Origin: a virus
Direction: 5' to 3' (one strand)
IMG/VR virus record: IMGVR_UViG_3300022591_000051
Span: 1-28,618 of that record
Length of the DNA stretch: 28,618 nt
Shown in pieces: positions 8,918 to 15,836 of the stretch; the first letter of the stretch is position 1, and every line of letters begins with the position of its first letter. A model generated the notes under the pieces. The model was not told where the DNA came from. It did not search any database and saw only the letters and a list, made by a program, of their open reading frames with translations. The translations under genes were made by a program, and so were the position numbers.

Positions 8918-9790
8918 TTATCTCTTAATTGCCGCGCCACTACCGCCAAATAAACTACCTTTAGCATCTAAGCCATTTTTAGCTGTGCCATCTTTATTTG
9001 TTGGTTGTTTTACTTTTGGTTGTGTTGGTGCTTTTGTTCCTGATCTGCCAGGTGTACCTGTATAGCTCTTTTGACCACGAGACTTGCCTAAAATAACAGC
9101 AGGGTTCCCGCCAATGCTTCCAACTGCGGCAACATTAGTAGTTCCACTATCAGTCCATTCTTTAATATCGGCAGCTGACCCAGGATGTTCGTCACTATCA
9201 CCGCTCTTAGCAATTAAGTTACCATTGCTACGATCTAAACTCTTTAACGCTTGTGGTTTATGTTCTTCTTCACCTGCTAAAATCTTACGAGCACGTTGTA
9301 ATCCTGAGACAATAGTTTGTAAACTATCTTCGTCTGCTTGATACTTGATACCAATACCACCTGCGGCTTCCCAAGCACTGATGTTACTGCCTCTATCATC
9401 GATTAGGATGTTAGGAGTGCCGTCTGCTTGTTTAGCCCACTTGGCTTTGTTTGGAGTAATAACAACATCAACCGGCTGTGGGTTTAAGTGTTTTTGAATC
9501 CAAACTTTTTTATACTTTTCGCTACCTTCGTGATCCCCGCGTAATGGGCTAGAACAGATATGATAGTGACCGTACATTTTAACAATCATATCAACTAGTT
9601 GGTCAGCACTATTAAACTTTGGTAAACGTGCAAAGAAATCGGTTCCTACCATTTTTTGTAATGTAGGATCTGTTTTAGCTGGAGGAATATCTCTATAGTT
9701 GCCGCTTTCAATTCCGGCAAGTTTTGCGTATTCGGTAAAGAAGTCTGCTACAACTCCGTCCATATCTAGGTAAACTTCTGGTTTTTTCAT
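8918..9790 (-). CDS. HAD-family 5'(3')-deoxyribonucleotidase-like domain with long disordered tail
   Basis: A 290-residue protein. Residues 1-165 are a HAD phosphatase of the 5'(3')-deoxyribonucleotidase type: YLDMDGVVADF (nucleophile D9, acid D11), HICSSP (motif II Ser), K115/K117 region, and ILIDDRGSNISAWEAAGG (metal-binding D131/D132). Such enzymes remove phosphate from (deoxy)nucleoside monophosphates. Residues about 190-290 are Gly/Ser/Lys/Pro-rich with no domain (KSYTGTPGRSGTKAP, KVKQPTNKDG), unlike free metabolic nucleotidases, which end at about 200. It overlaps the sedolisin gene upstream by ATGA. The tail and the neighbours suggest the enzyme may ride in the virion; this is inferred. 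Confidence 0.8.
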   Translation of the reverse strand: MKKPEVYLDMDGVVADFFTEYAKLAGIESGNYRDIPPAKTDPTLQKMVGTDFFARLPKFNSADQLVDMIVKMYGHYHICSSPLRGDHEGSEKYKKVWIQKHLNPQPVDVVITPNKAKWAKQADGTPNILIDDRGSNISAWEAAGGIGIKYQADEDSLQTIVSGLQRARKILAGEEEHKPQALKSLDRSNGNLIAKSGDSDEHPGSAADIKEWTDSGTTNVAAVGSIGGNPAVILGKSRGQKSYTGTPGRSGTKAPTQPKVKQPTNKDGTAKNGLDAKGSLFGGSGAAIKR

Positions 9791-12708
9791 TTTTTATCTA
9801 TCTTTAAATTAACTGCCCAAGGTACTGTGTTTGATGGTTGGTATCTAATATTATTATAACCTCTATATACATCACTGCCGTTGTATTCTGCCCAGAAATA
9901 TAATTGTCCAGCAACGCCGGCACCAGGAAACGGAATAACAACAGTAGTAGCTGTAACGTTATTTACCAGTGTGAATTGAGTAGCGGTTGTTGCTAGGCTT
10001 GGAGGGTCGTTATACGGATAATGATTATTCATCATGTACGGAGTATTATTACTAGACACATCAACATCGGCACCGTTGAATACTAATTTATAGTAAAAAC
10101 TTACGGTACCATCTATAACATCTGCGCTTGCTACTGCGTTGTTATCAAAAAGATCGCGCCATTCAAATCGGACTGTGCCCTTCCAAACATTGTCAGTAGT
10201 TAACCGCCCTAGTACTCCTTTGGTATTTGTGTAATGCCCTTCGGAGATTGAAAGCGTATCTACAATAGATACAGAAGTATTTGTAGATAGTGATAAAAAC
10301 GCAATGCCGTATTCTTCAACGTGCTTTAACGCTCCTAAAACAAATGTGCTGGTACTAACTTGTCTAGGCCCTGCTGGGTAAGTGCTTGAAGCAGTAATTG
10401 AATAAGTTGAGGCAAGTAAGAACTGGGTTACTGATCCAGATACTTCGCCTGTAGTTGAATTTAAACTAAGTCCAACGGGTAGACTTGGTGAAACACTAAA
10501 TGTTACACCGCCGACTCCACCTATTGCGGTAACCGGAGTAAAACTATACGATTGATTTTGTTCAAGTACTTTACGTGTTATGACAGTTGTTGTTACAACC
10601 GGAGGAATAATATATAAACTAACCTGAGTAGTAGTTGTCTGTGGATTTGGTGTTAGTAAATCGTGTACTGTAATTTGATAAGTAGCCGTAGCTGAATACG
10701 CAGTTGGAGTTCCGGTAATTACACCAGTTGATGTACTAATAGACAACCCTGCTGGCAATGCTGGAAGAATAGACCATACACGATTTATATAACCACCAGT
10801 GGCTGTTTCAAAAGAGAATGATACTGCGGTACCAGTAGATAATACAGTTGATGTTGTTGTAATTGAAACAGTTAATGGGGCCGCGATGTTTATTGTAACA
10901 TTTTTACTGCTAGTGCGCGGAGTAGGTTGTAACTGGTCAGTAACAGTAATCGAGTATGTAAGTCCCGATGCGCCAGATGTTGGAGTTCCAGTAATATCAC
11001 CGGTAGCTGGGTTTAATAATAATCCGCTAGGCAATGATGGAAATACACTATATGATAATGCGCCATATCCGCCTGATCCAGTTACTGGATGAAAAGCAGT
11101 TGCCCAATGTAGCGCAATAACAAATGAAGATAAATTTTGTACAGTAGATACGGGTCTAAACAAATAGCTAAGTTGTGTACCATTAGGAGTTCCCCATCCG
11201 CTAGCGGCATCCCAACCAGTAGTGGCTGCATATCCTAAGGTAGTACCAGTCGGTGCGTTGTTGCCGGAAGTAACATCATTAAACACTCCAGGATTTGCGT
11301 AAACAGTTTGATTAACAAATCCAGTAGCGCCATAGTTAGCAATTATTCTTGCGAACAAACCTGCGAACAGCGGAGCTACGGCACTAGTTCCACCGTATTG
11401 TTGTAGAGTGCCATTGACATAAAATCTATATCCAGTGTAAGGGTCTGCATTACCTGAGAAATCTGGAACTCCTCTTTTTGGAAGAGTAGTAGCACTACCA
11501 GTTACACCGTTTTGATATGTGTTATAAGTTAAGCCATTTTGCCATGGTGGTTTACTAATGTTGGCGCTAATGCCACCACCGCCTGCGGAATATGTTTGGC
11601 TTGGATAATTATTCCATACGGTTTCTGAAATTATAGTATTAGTGTTAGTATCTGCGATTAATTTAGTACCACCGCATGATACTACATACGCACTACTTCC
11701 TGGATATGATACTATTGCGGAACCTAATCCGCCTGTGTAAGATCCAGAGTCACCGCTAGAAACAAGTATTGTGATTCCTAATACAACCGCAGATTGAAAT
11801 ATGTCTTCTAACGCAAATAAGTTAGGAACAAATGTTTCCGGGGCTCCGTAGCTTATTGATAAAATTTTTGGATTGACTGTAGTATCATGTACCGCATAGC
11901 TAATTGCTGACGCAAATCCTGTGTAGCTAATGTTTGGATCACCGTTGTATATATAAAGATGCGCTCCAGGTGCGGCTCCTCCGGCGCAATATATATCTAA
12001 CAAAGTTTCAGGTCCGTCTGGACTTGATGATCCTTTATTGTATCCGCCGTATCCGTCTGGGATATTAATATCAGTTACTGTCGGAGCAGTAAGCCCTATA
12101 TTTGAAAAACTAGAAGTTACATCAGATTGATTCCAACCTCCGTTCCATTCTAAAATACCTATATTAACTCCAGCACCTGTTCCTGTTGGAAAATTATATG
12201 CGTTTGCTACTTGCGGTGGAGTTAGTGATCCAGTGCCTGGATCGTTTAATGCTACAATATCTTCGTTTTCAACTTTTCTTAGCAATGGCCCAAATATCTG
12301 TTTAGTGCTAAATCCGTCAACGCTTTGAACAACGCTAGCAATTTCTACAGGGATAGTTATATCGCCTGTGAATCCTCTATACGGTCTGCCGTTATTGTCA
12401 ATGTCGTCTACTATCGTAATGTTAAACAAATTATTGAATTGATCAACAAATCCTTCTATGCGTACAATCGCACTAGCTGAGTCACTGCTTACTAAAATTA
12501 ATTGATGTTCTTCGGCAAACGCCGCTACTGTAGCAATAGTTTCGTCTGTCGCTCCGTAGATTTGTTGAAAGTGTTCTCTTGATAGCGGAGGCTTATCACC
12601 ACTAATGACAGAATCTGCCCAATCTTTTAAAGACATCGCATATTCAGGACGTGAAAGTAAAACGCTTAAGGTTATTCTATCACTAAGATTGGTTGGAGTT
12701 GCCGCCAT
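9787..12708 (-). CDS. Sedolisin (S53) family serine-carboxyl peptidase with pro-domain and three Ig-like repeats
   Basis: A 973-residue protein. Residues about 10-140 resemble the kumamolisin pro-domain (LSREHFQQIYGATDETIATV; AIVRIEGFVDQFNNLFN). The catalytic core has DGPETLLDI (E234, D238), VSSGDSGS (oxyanion D320) and GGTSAVAPL (nucleophile S442), so the Glu-Asp-Ser triad and oxyanion Asp are all present. The calcium site typical of the family is visible as FNDVTSGNN (D478) and GWDAASGWG (D500). Three putative Ig (He_PIG-like) repeats follow at about 541-608, 630-698 and 720-788 (each LPxGLxLxxxTGxITGTP-like), then a beta-rich C-terminal domain to 973 resembling a virion attachment region. 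There is no signal peptide, so it is not exported by Sec. It overlaps its downstream neighbour and lies among probable virion genes. Confidence 0.9.
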   Translation of the reverse strand: MAATPTNLSDRITLSVLLSRPEYAMSLKDWADSVISGDKPPLSREHFQQIYGATDETIATVAAFAEEHQLILVSSDSASAIVRIEGFVDQFNNLFNITIVDDIDNNGRPYRGFTGDITIPVEIASVVQSVDGFSTKQIFGPLLRKVENEDIVALNDPGTGSLTPPQVANAYNFPTGTGAGVNIGILEWNGGWNQSDVTSSFSNIGLTAPTVTDINIPDGYGGYNKGSSSPDGPETLLDIYCAGGAAPGAHLYIYNGDPNISYTGFASAISYAVHDTTVNPKILSISYGAPETFVPNLFALEDIFQSAVVLGITILVSSGDSGSYTGGLGSAIVSYPGSSAYVVSCGGTKLIADTNTNTIISETVWNNYPSQTYSAGGGGISANISKPPWQNGLTYNTYQNGVTGSATTLPKRGVPDFSGNADPYTGYRFYVNGTLQQYGGTSAVAPLFAGLFARIIANYGATGFVNQTVYANPGVFNDVTSGNNAPTGTTLGYAATTGWDAASGWGTPNGTQLSYLFRPVSTVQNLSSFVIALHWATAFHPVTGSGGYGALSYSVFPSLPSGLLLNPATGDITGTPTSGASGLTYSITVTDQLQPTPRTSSKNVTINIAAPLTVSITTTSTVLSTGTAVSFSFETATGGYINRVWSILPALPAGLSISTSTGVITGTPTAYSATATYQITVHDLLTPNPQTTTTQVSLYIIPPVVTTTVITRKVLEQNQSYSFTPVTAIGGVGGVTFSVSPSLPVGLSLNSTTGEVSGSVTQFLLASTYSITASSTYPAGPRQVSTSTFVLGALKHVEEYGIAFLSLSTNTSVSIVDTLSISEGHYTNTKGVLGRLTTDNVWKGTVRFEWRDLFDNNAVASADVIDGTVSFYYKLVFNGADVDVSSNNTPYMMNNHYPYNDPPSLATTATQFTLVNNVTATTVVIPFPGAGVAGQLYFWAEYNGSDVYRGYNNIRYQPSNTVPWAVNLKIDKK

Positions 12709-12709
12709 G

Positions 12710-13072
12710 TTATTTCTTATTCCAGTTGCTTACTGGACTAACGGTATTAGTATTGTCTGGTTCAGTACTACCATCAGGACTTTGTCTTTTTTGATCGTAT
12801 CCAAATTTCTTAATTGACTTTGAAATAATCTCTCTATCAGCTTCACTATATCCTACCATAACCATATCGTCAACAAATTGACCTGTTGTAGGATAGTTGT
12901 GTTCATCGTCTGGAGATCCAGCCATCATAACACCTAAGCGATATTTGTGATAGAAATTAGTTGGACCCATTGGTAACGGAGGCACGCCTACACTACTCAT
13001 GCTAGGAATAACGCTTTGCTGATCAGCATTTACTGATTGCTTCTGTTCAACTAATAAATCTCTAATCTTCAC
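12710..13072 (-). CDS. Small phage protein, unknown, possible virion module
   Basis: A 120-residue protein starting MKIRDLLVEQ, a start shared in style with other phage proteins here (MNLVELFITE, MKLYEFFGAL). The middle, NFYHKYRLGVMMAGSPD followed by YPTTGQFVDDMVMVGYSEADREIISKSIKKFG, looks like a compact folded module; the ends are Ser/Pro/Asn-rich. It is squeezed between the 99-aa gene and the sedolisin with 1-bp and 11-bp junctions, so it is part of the same transcript. I associate this module with T4-like phages of aquatic bacteria, but its function is unknown. Confidence 0.7.
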   Translation of the reverse strand: MKIRDLLVEQKQSVNADQQSVIPSMSSVGVPPLPMGPTNFYHKYRLGVMMAGSPDDEHNYPTTGQFVDDMVMVGYSEADREIISKSIKKFGYDQKRQSPDGSTEPDNTNTVSPVSNWNKK

Positions 13073-13361
13073 TTTTTTGTTCGCCTGTCATAAATGGTCT
13101 GCTAAACCATAATTTAAACCATTCTGGAGTACCTGGTTTAATATTTTGTTCACGTTGTATTCTAGCATTTTCTGTAGCAGTTACAGTTATATTACTACCT
13201 TGATTTAGCTTTGATCGATATTCGGCAAGTCTTTCATTTGCCCCTAGACCTGCTAGTGTTTGTACAATTTTTAATTCGTGTATCGGATCTTCTGGAGCAA
13301 GATAGCAATCGTCATCACTATCTTGAGGAAGATGGTCGGTAGTTATTTTGTATTGCTTCAT
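13062..13361 (-). CDS. Small phage protein with GTPEWFKLWF motif
   Basis: A 99-residue protein. The C-terminal third carries IKPGTPEWFKLWFSRPF, an aromatic motif of a type that recurs as a short module in aquatic phage proteins. The N-terminal part is acidic and contains LKIVQTLAGLGANERLAEYRSKL, a helical segment. It overlaps the upstream fusion gene by ATGA and the downstream 120-aa gene by 11 bp. No enzymatic motif is seen. Function unknown; probable virion or assembly protein from its neighbours. Confidence 0.7.
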   Translation of the reverse strand: MKQYKITTDHLPQDSDDDCYLAPEDPIHELKIVQTLAGLGANERLAEYRSKLNQGSNITVTATENARIQREQNIKPGTPEWFKLWFSRPFMTGEQKSED

Positions 13362-15022
13362 TTCTTAGCACGACCTGCTTTCATATTAGCCATCCAGTGA
13401 GCCATACGTGCTTTTTCACCAGTTGAATGTTTAGCTGTAGCTCTTAAATCGCTAACACTTGCTTTAGTGTTAACGCCGCTACGTTTTGCTAGGCCTTTGC
13501 GTCCGGGGTTCTTCCCATCTGCAAAGTTTTCTAATAATTTGTTAACAGCATCGGACATTTCAGCTTCCCAGCCTTCTCCGATCTCAACTTGTTTATTTTC
13601 GTAAAAACCGCCAATATCCTTTTTAGCATAATGACGTAGGTTACGCAATGCTTTAGCTTCTATCTGGCGAATTCGTTCTCTACTAACTCCCATTACGGCA
13701 CTAACTTCATCTAGAGTCATGTCACTCCAGTATCGTAGTTTCATAACCATCTTATATTTCTTTGGAAGAGTATCAAGATGTTTAGCAATTAATTGTTTTA
13801 ATTTTTCTTTATCAAAATCTTGTTCGTACGGCTCATCGTGTTCAGGCCCAAATCTTTCAGCATCGTCTACCGGATCGTTATCTAACGTAGGCATTTTTTC
13901 ACCTCGGTAAGTTGTACCGATTGGGTTATATAACGCCGCTTGTTGATTTGGACTTGCTTCATTAGCAACACAGTTATTAACGCGAACACCACCTTTTATC
14001 TTAGTGCCTTCTTTGTGCTTGCCCTTCCAGCATTTAGGATCTAAGCGTTGCTTAACACTTTCAGACATGCTAATGTTATTCTTTAGATCTTTTACAATTA
14101 ATTGTAATAGTTCTTTAGCGGCACCGTCGCCCCATTGTAAACTCTTTACAATAGCGTGTGCGCCTTCTGTACCAACTTGTTGAATAATATGTGTTAACAG
14201 TTCTTTAGTTAAGTGTGGTAATCCTTCTGGTTCGCCTTCAGCTTCATCGATACTTTCACCTGCGTGTTTAAAATATTGTACTTGACGTTCACGTTTTTCA
14301 GCACCAGCTTTAGTAGGATACTTACCTAAATTCTTACCAGTCTTTTTGCTCTTAAGTTCGTAGCCACCTTTAACTTTTACAATGTGTTCATTTGTGGCAT
14401 TTCTTTCTGGATTGTCTAACATACCAACCCCTGCCATTGTTTCTTGTTGAGTAACACCCATGCCTTGTTGAACATCATTCATAAGTGCGTGTGCTGTTTG
14501 TTCATCGCTAATACCAGTAATCTGCATAAACTTCTTAAGGTCATTTGATACTGCGGCATTACGAGCATCAGTTGAACGGCCTTCTGGGCTAGGACTTTCT
14601 GCAAATTGTAGCGGACGGAAATCATACATACCGTGAGTACTTTCAACACCGTTGTATTTTTCTAATGCTACTTTCATTGCGGCTAAATCTTCTGTTCCTG
14701 CTACAAAGGTAGCTGAGCGATAACCTTTGGCATATAGATATGCCGCGGCTTGTAGATATGTTTTAACTGCCGGATCAGTTACTAGATGTCCCTTAAGATC
14801 AGGATGTAGTTTTTGTAACCAGTTAGTCTTTTGTTGAAATGTTAGCGGATTCTTTTTCTTATCTTGACTCTGACTTGTAAAAATAAACCAATCACCTTCG
14901 CCAGCAGCCTTAGCTACAGTTTGGAATACAACTGCATGACCTGCGTTAGGTGGATTGAATCGACCAAAGCAAAATGCTACGTGTCGATTATCTTCAGTAA
15001 TAAAGAGTTCTACTAGGTTCAT
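13358..15022 (-). CDS. Fusion protein: nucleotidyltransferase domain + phage modules + RpoD-like sigma-70 region 4
   Basis: A 554-residue multidomain protein. Residues 10-165: nucleotidyltransferase of the HxGH superfamily (FCFGRFNPPNAGH at 17-29; SPSPEGRSTDARNAA at 143-157 as the ISTTxxR-like motif), related to NMN adenylyltransferases and cytidylyltransferases. Residues 213-252: a basic module (KVKGGYELKSKKTGKNLGKY). Residues 322-356: a two-Cys module (DPKCWKG, VNNCVANEA). Residues 403-468: a sigma-70 region 4 with TLDEVSAVMGVS and SRERIRQIEAKALRNLRH, nearly the same as the -35-binding helix-turn-helix of RpoD. Residues 486-554: another basic module (ENFADGKNPGRKGLAKRSG). No sigma region 2 is seen, so it cannot initiate transcription alone. 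ATGA-coupled to both neighbours. Modules suggest a packaged or assembly protein; that part is inference. Confidence 0.88.
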   Translation of the reverse strand: MNLVELFITEDNRHVAFCFGRFNPPNAGHAVVFQTVAKAAGEGDWFIFTSQSQDKKKNPLTFQQKTNWLQKLHPDLKGHLVTDPAVKTYLQAAAYLYAKGYRSATFVAGTEDLAAMKVALEKYNGVESTHGMYDFRPLQFAESPSPEGRSTDARNAAVSNDLKKFMQITGISDEQTAHALMNDVQQGMGVTQQETMAGVGMLDNPERNATNEHIVKVKGGYELKSKKTGKNLGKYPTKAGAEKRERQVQYFKHAGESIDEAEGEPEGLPHLTKELLTHIIQQVGTEGAHAIVKSLQWGDGAAKELLQLIVKDLKNNISMSESVKQRLDPKCWKGKHKEGTKIKGGVRVNNCVANEASPNQQAALYNPIGTTYRGEKMPTLDNDPVDDAERFGPEHDEPYEQDFDKEKLKQLIAKHLDTLPKKYKMVMKLRYWSDMTLDEVSAVMGVSRERIRQIEAKALRNLRHYAKKDIGGFYENKQVEIGEGWEAEMSDAVNKLLENFADGKNPGRKGLAKRSGVNTKASVSDLRATAKHSTGEKARMAHWMANMKAGRAKK

Positions 15023-15390
15023 ACTTTATATTCACCGTTTACAATATCTTTGCGATAGTGATCGTCTAATAGTTCGCATAGTTCTTCACGAAACTTTTTA
15101 GTAAACACGTCTTTAGGATCTTCCTGCATTTTGTGGGTATGATAAAAATCCATACATCCGTCAGTAACTAGTTGTGACCATACTGATTTCTCAGCATCTT
15201 TATTTTTAGCAATTTCTTCTACTACATCGTAGAAATGCTTTTTATGTAAATTGTCATGATCAATCACATGGAAGAAAATTTCATCTCGTAGCTGTTTTTC
15301 TTGCTCGAGAGTTTTACCTTGCTCGCTTTGGTCTTTAACATTGGGCGATTCTAAACTACTTAGTGCGCCAAAAAATTCGTATAGTTTCAT
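15019..15390 (-). CDS. Hypothetical acidic/charged helical protein
   Basis: A 123-residue protein, MKLYEFFGALSSLESP, then an almost fully helical charged region rich in His, Asp, Glu and Lys (FFHVIDHDNLHKKHFYDVVEEI; FYHTHKMQEDPKDVF; LCELLDDHYRKDI). No domain is recognised. Only a weak ribosome-binding site is seen, and the start lies three bases after the stop of the upstream gene, so translation probably depends on coupling. It overlaps the fusion-protein gene by ATGA. Confidence 0.65.
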   Translation of the reverse strand: MKLYEFFGALSSLESPNVKDQSEQGKTLEQEKQLRDEIFFHVIDHDNLHKKHFYDVVEEIAKNKDAEKSVWSQLVTDGCMDFYHTHKMQEDPKDVFTKKFREELCELLDDHYRKDIVNGEYKV

Positions 15391-15392
15391 AA

Positions 15393-15836
15393 TTAAAAGT
15401 TGTATTGAATGCTAATCATAGTCCCTTGACTAATCTGTACTTTTCCTCGTACCCAAACAAAATTGCCAGTAAATGTAGTAGCAATAGTTGAAGTGGTATT
15501 TGTAGGATTGTAAGCGTATGATTGTTTGGTATCAGGTACATCGAACCAGTCAGTATCTGTCGGCGCAGTTGCTAAAGTAGCCTGCATTGAAAGAGTTCCA
15601 ACAAATGTAGGTGCTACAGTATAAGCTACGGTATGTAAACCTGAACTTATTCCATAATACCCTGTTCCCTTTTCTTGATTACTAGGAAACGTTAAAATAT
15701 TGTAGGGAGGGTTAAAAGTACTATTCCCATGATAGTACGCAGGCATACTTAGTACACTAGTGGTTGTTAAAACCGTGACCGTACCTGTAGTATTGATATC
15801 TGTATTAAAACTTAGTGTTTTGCTCAATGCGGGCAT
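15393..15836 (-). CDS. Beta-rich Thr/Ser protein, probable virion surface protein
   Basis: A 147-residue protein with high Thr, Ser, Asn and Tyr and few charged residues (MPALSKTLSFNTDINTTGTV; FVGTLSMQATLATAP; FTGNFVWVRGKVQISQG). This composition and the alternating strands fit a small beta-sandwich decoration or tail protein; FVWVRGKVQI resembles the last strands of such folds. It has a GAGGAA-type ribosome-binding site, and a candidate late promoter AATAAATA lies about 20 bases before its start, which fits a structural gene. No family is recognised. Confidence 0.7.
   Translation of the reverse strand: MPALSKTLSFNTDINTTGTVTVLTTTSVLSMPAYYHGNSTFNPPYNILTFPSNQEKGTGYYGISSGLHTVAYTVAPTFVGTLSMQATLATAPTDTDWFDVPDTKQSYAYNPTNTTSTIATTFTGNFVWVRGKVQISQGTMISIQYNF

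Follow-up and report, generated by a model that had tools for sequence, protein, structure and literature searches.

Acid conditions are typically where sedolisins are active, and those secreted by bacteria are thought to digest lysate proteins, matrix or competitors. The closest described enzyme to the protein considered here is pro-kumamolisin (PDB 1t1e, MEROPS family S53), which has the same succession of pro-domain and catalytic domain, the same Glu/Asp/Asp/Ser active site and the same calcium-site aspartates. On the phage side, tail-borne polysaccharide depolymerases are a classic tool, and tail- or whisker-borne proteases are, to our knowledge, little studied. Two cultured phages, Agrobacterium phage Atu_ph07 and Sinorhizobium phage Phosso, encode proteases in which, as in the present protein, a serine protease domain is followed by He_PIG repeats. 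Their catalytic domain, however, is of family S8 (subtilase) instead of S53, and their genes occupy another genomic position: that of Atu_ph07 (AUZ95088, phrog_3677) lies two genes from a tail-fibre gene, and in Phosso the distance to an annotated minor tail protein is three genes. A gene count across the published landmarks gp288, gp292 (ClpA) and gp327 places AUZ95088 at gp329. According to the Atu_ph07 paper (Attai et al., PMC6102473), the virion proteins detected by ESI-MS/MS come mostly from three clusters, one of which is CDS 284-329; read from the boundary of that cluster, gp329 would be present in virions.

No paper on phage sedolisins and none on tail subtilases of jumbo phages was found in the literature; one match, to Histophilus, was to a mere cluster name. 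Likewise, three sedolisin queries gave zero tblastn matches in 50,697 annotated phage records, in which a control polymerase query matched 2,588, so that the family is entirely missed by the public phage catalogue searched. The first-pass annotation had pointed to no well-studied phage example. The protein described below is encoded in a 28.6-kb IMG/VR virus fragment of 28,618 nucleotides, the whole of which is referred to as the window.

A complete sedolisin zymogen

The sedolisin gene (9787..12708) runs on the minus strand, as do all its parts given below, from an ATG at 12708 to a TGA at 9787 and is an intact frame of 973 aa. When the region was shuffled 300 times, the longest open run was 155 codons, compared with the 973 codons of this frame. 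Pfam, a PDB sequence match and residue alignment together identify the product as a complete peptidase-family S53 zymogen, as the first-pass annotation had read it, and its place in S53 is practically beyond doubt. The protein begins with a pro-kumamolisin activation domain (PF09286, residues 7-133, 12310..12690), matched at 37.3 bits against a Pfam cut-off of 23.5 and modelled with a pLDDT mostly about 90. A linker (residues 134-160, 12229..12309) with low pLDDT at 141-157 leads to the S53 catalytic domain (residues about 161-519, 11152..12228), which is matched in the PDB by sequence and structure and by residue alignment. The linker is the likely autoprocessing region, given that the mature-enzyme chains of kumamolisin align from residue about 160. 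There follow three He_PIG Ig-like repeats (PF05345, 62.3 bits over three stretches; residues about 520-790, 10339..11151) with cores at residues 559-574, 651-666 and 743-758, in agreement with the three repeats proposed at first, and the alignment to the fused phage sedolisin L189 described below reaches residue 788 of this part. The beta-rich C-terminus (residues 791-973, 9790..10338) is an orphan for which no relative was found, and with a pLDDT under 50 no fold is claimed for it. Used alone as a query for close relatives, this C-terminus gave zero matches, as did the full protein, although alignment-based scans did find relatives of the latter. PHROGs and NCBIfam assigned no family to the protein.

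Pro-kumamolisin 1t1e was matched in the PDB sequence search with an E of 4e-84, the sequence identity to kumamolisin being about 40% in alignment and 43-44% over the catalytic domain alone. The S53 triad and the oxyanion-hole Asp align to kumamolisin at E234 (codon 12007-12009), D238 (11995-11997), D320 (11749-11751) and S442 (11383-11385), exactly the four residues named before. The calcium site, also listed by the first-pass annotation, is represented by its Asp pair, D478/D500, the equivalents of kumamolisin D316/D338. None of the six varies across an alignment with nine phage relatives and six bacterial homologues. One deviation was noted, Tyr287 replacing Trp129 of kumamolisin. Tyr occupies this position in three phage sedolisins (L187:4429-7827, L200:9963-13946 and the window), and L187 also carries Gln at the position of kumamolisin Glu32.

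The AlphaFold2 model is confident over the pro-domain and catalytic domain, but not over the C-terminus, and superposes on intact pro-kumamolisin 1t1e with a Z of 55.8 and an rmsd of 2.3 over 498 residues at 36% identity, pro-domain included. The protein differs from pro-kumamolisin in being encoded by a phage and in its extension of about 450 residues, made of the Ig-like repeats and the orphan C-terminus. The best viral structural matches are subtilase-family proteases of Homavirus and Barrevirus (BFVD A0A3G5A7D9 and A0A3G4ZQ87, E 3e-42 and 4e-41), giant viruses unlike the tailed phage of the window, and the best phage match by fold is Atu_ph07 gp329 (E 3e-17). The missing export signal remarked upon at first was borne out inasmuch as a crude test revealed no hydrophobic stretch at the N-terminus (best 12-residue mean 1.07). 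Since 80 of 80 bacterial relatives also lack a hydrophobic N-terminus by the same test, the feature is not distinctive and the signal-peptide argument does not discriminate.

The phage and the locus

The window phage, a large freshwater phage, belongs to a T4-like family that is distant kin of the jumbo phage Atu_ph07. A search with its DNA polymerase reached over 590 viral contigs, of which the top 80 share 80-89% identity with it; among cultured phages, Phosso and Atu_ph07 come closest, at 47-50%. Besides this polymerase, the products of the wider segment include ClpA, DnaJ, a clamp loader and an endolysin; in Atu_ph07, the corresponding interval from polymerase to ClpA contains the tail-fibre gene gp288.

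The window sedolisin is not beside a tail-fibre gene. Its downstream neighbour (8918..9790, minus strand) encodes a 5'-deoxyribonucleotidase-like (NT5C-like) protein and has an ATG that overlaps the sedolisin stop by 4 bases; its upstream neighbour (12710..13072, minus strand), a gene of 120 aa with no family assigned, is separated from the sedolisin ATG by a 1-base gap. The virion-like character first ascribed to the neighbours is thus only weakly true: one weak virion PHROG match (phrog_14467) lies at 15393-15836, but the direct neighbours are the 5'-nucleotidase-like protein and small unassigned ones. In four related contigs (L025, L037, L091 and L094), the flanking genes have homologues that are near neighbours, separated by a small gene at most and by no sedolisin, the homologue of 8918..9790 coming after that of 12710..13072 or after another small gene. 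The window sedolisin is therefore an accessory gene in a variable interval. Nor did PF09286 match anything in the close polymerase relatives L015 (88%, 200-kb record) and L025 (86%, 331-kb record), records that are possibly fragments. The sedolisin gene has a phage-like composition, with a GC of 0.40 and a GC3 of 0.25.

Elsewhere in the window, a single protein at 13358-15022 joins a cytidylyltransferase-like N-terminus to sigma-70 region 4. The N-termini MKIRDLLVEQ, MNLVELFITED and MKLYEFFGA, at 12710-13072, 13358-15022 and 15019-15390 respectively, have similar counterparts in relatives such as L063 and L185, and presumably resemble the leaders of T4 internal head proteins and Alt.

A phage-only clade, mostly near tail-fibre genes

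In a tree of 158 rows, a quick version supported by SH-aLRT without bootstrap and containing several phage rows that deviate in amino-acid composition, the window protein and nine pro-domain sedolisins (L166, L178, L180, L181, L182, L183, L187, L189 and L200) form one phage-only clade with an SH-aLRT of 100 and a long stem. The neighbours of this clade in the tree are bacterial enzymes, mostly from Burkholderiaceae.

In seven of the nine relatives, the sedolisin gene directly adjoins, or is joined in frame with, genes of the collagen/tail-fibre region or genes encoding He_PIG repeats and a C-terminal domain (CTD). In L185 and L186, which carry the L178 and L183 genes, the sedolisin starts two bases after a gene of collagen-like repeats, that of L185 being confirmed as a Collagen/tail-fibre PHROG. 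Ahead of the L182 sedolisin come a He_PIG-CTD gene and another large protein, of no Pfam family (phrog_9627/15343); that of L180 is followed at once by a CTD protein of 2234 aa and then by one with collagen repeats. An 877-aa protein without assignment directly precedes the sedolisin of L181. L166 ends in collagen repeats of its own. In L189 (1430 aa) and L200 (1327 aa) the pro-domain, the S53 domain, Ig/cadherin-like repeats and the CTD are fused, in this order, into one protein, with collagen and Peptidase_S74 tail fibres encoded downstream; the contig that bears L189 also carries L057, whose DNA polymerase is 83% identical to that of the window. The exception in the clade is L187, which has no structural neighbour.

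A C-terminal motif, hP-x-x-x-x-G-x-R, is common to the five shorter members (L185, L181, L182, L186 and L166), mostly in two copies. Motifs such as FPKKNFGFRPTTGPTYPRISTGARVN, repeated at the sedolisin C-termini of L178, L181, L182, L183 and L166, did not recur at the C-terminal end of any other ORF across the nine mapped loci, and are candidate docking peptides.

A C-terminal domain shared with S8 proteases

Two S8–He_PIG–CTD proteins of cultured phages, the Phosso S8 peptidase and the 'extracellular serine proteinase precursor' of Atu_ph07, contain a match to the CTD of L189 and L200 (only 26% identity and E 1e-8 between the CTDs of L189 and Atu_ph07). As the CTD was modelled poorly, with a mean pLDDT of 58.9, fold matches serve here only to support the sequence match. 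In genomes of the window family, the CTD also occurs with He_PIG repeats but without a protease, beside tail-fibre-like genes. The window copy, on the other hand, lacks this domain: its C-terminus was rejected as a CTD (hhalign probability 0.3%) and the domain was absent from the whole window record. Because this test failed, the window protein is not classed with Atu_ph07 gp329.

Proposed role and alternatives

The best explanation, held with slightly better than even confidence, is that the window gene encodes an accessory phage-lineage sedolisin zymogen carried on the phage particle. The protein, having no signal peptide, would be made in the cytoplasm, folding together with its pro-domain, which would then be removed by self-cleavage in the 134-160 linker, as predicted from kumamolisin. 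Since the Ig-like stalk comes after the catalytic domain in the chain, the mature enzyme would remain attached to it after cleavage, and stalk and C-terminus would anchor the sedolisin on the virion, probably in the tail or whisker region, from which it may digest host-surface proteins or the surrounding matrix during adsorption. The tail-fibre neighbourhoods and fusions of the clade suggest that certain phages bear a protein-cutting enzyme of their own on the particle; for the window copy, we infer incorporation, activation and substrate. Display on the virion through the Ig-like repeats, as the first-pass annotation had it, thus draws support from the tail-fibre adjacency or fusion of relatives and from the CTD shared with the S8 proteases, of which that of Atu_ph07 lies at the edge of a virion-protein cluster. 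Against it stand the window copy itself, which lacks the CTD, has an orphan C-terminus and lies in a variable interval away from structural genes, the close phage relatives, which do without the sedolisin as far as their possibly fragmentary records go, L187 with its lack of structural neighbours, and the low identity of the CTD match between L189 and Atu_ph07.

An enzyme that stays soluble, is freed at host lysis and digests lysate proteins, matrix or competitors is a rather unlikely alternative. It would suit the bacterial relatives, stand-alone zymogens that likewise lack a detectable signal peptide, as well as the position of the window gene outside any tail cluster and L187 with no structural neighbour. 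Most clade members, however, adjoin or are fused to tail-fibre-region genes, and in several phage copies, that of the window among them, the C-terminal extension runs to hundreds of residues, compared with a median of 2.5 in 80 bacterial relatives. A protease that acts inside the cell during infection, in host takeover or against host defences, would agree with the lack of an export signal and with the nearby genes for nucleotide metabolism, DnaJ and ClpA, but is improbable: a pro-domain and an Ig-like stalk are more in keeping with a place at a surface than in the cytoplasm, and sedolisin activity typically calls for acid pH.

Proteases that cut head or tail proteins during particle maturation are common in T4-like phages, and the first-pass annotation had offered this function too; here it is highly improbable, as the gene is accessory and PF09286 has no match in the L015 and L025 records. 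Equally little credence is given to a recently inserted passenger gene without selected function. The sedolisin is indeed sporadic in the family and missing at the same site in relatives, but its frame is intact, all catalytic residues are kept, its GC is phage-like, its junctions of one and four bases are tight, and the long stem of its phage-specific clade points to a lengthy stay in phages.

Beyond the window, a sedolisin on the particle may be one case of exchangeable protease modules that large tailed phages mount on an Ig-like scaffold associated with the tail, whereby secreted-type zymogens of families S8 and S53 are swapped onto, or placed beside, the same structural CTD and yield a self-activating host-surface protease on particles. 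This broader reading is tentative and rated somewhat below even. The phage-specific sedolisin lineage and the S8/S53 swap on a shared CTD point to a general protease-on-particle strategy.

Other viral sedolisins

Alignment-driven scans of IMG/VR recovered 82 distinct sedolisin sequences after removal of copies, and a plasmid search gave 50 sedolisin records. Outside the window clade, the phage sedolisins are mostly short and without a pro-domain, 55 of 73 starting their catalytic domain near the N-terminus, and their neighbour genes are mixed. They include a larger second set (L002-L014, L095-L175 and L195-L250), mostly of about 340-480 aa and mostly without a pro-domain or signal peptide, which falls into separate clades in the tree and whose contigs reach 447 kb (L096), 392 kb (L099) and 381 kb (L195). 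The phage-specific lineage of the window also adds a source of possibly acid-active proteases. The giant viruses Homavirus, Barrevirus and Sylvanvirus (BFVD A0A3G5A7D9, A0A3G4ZQ87 and A0A3G5AIP2) also appear to have sedolisin-like proteases.
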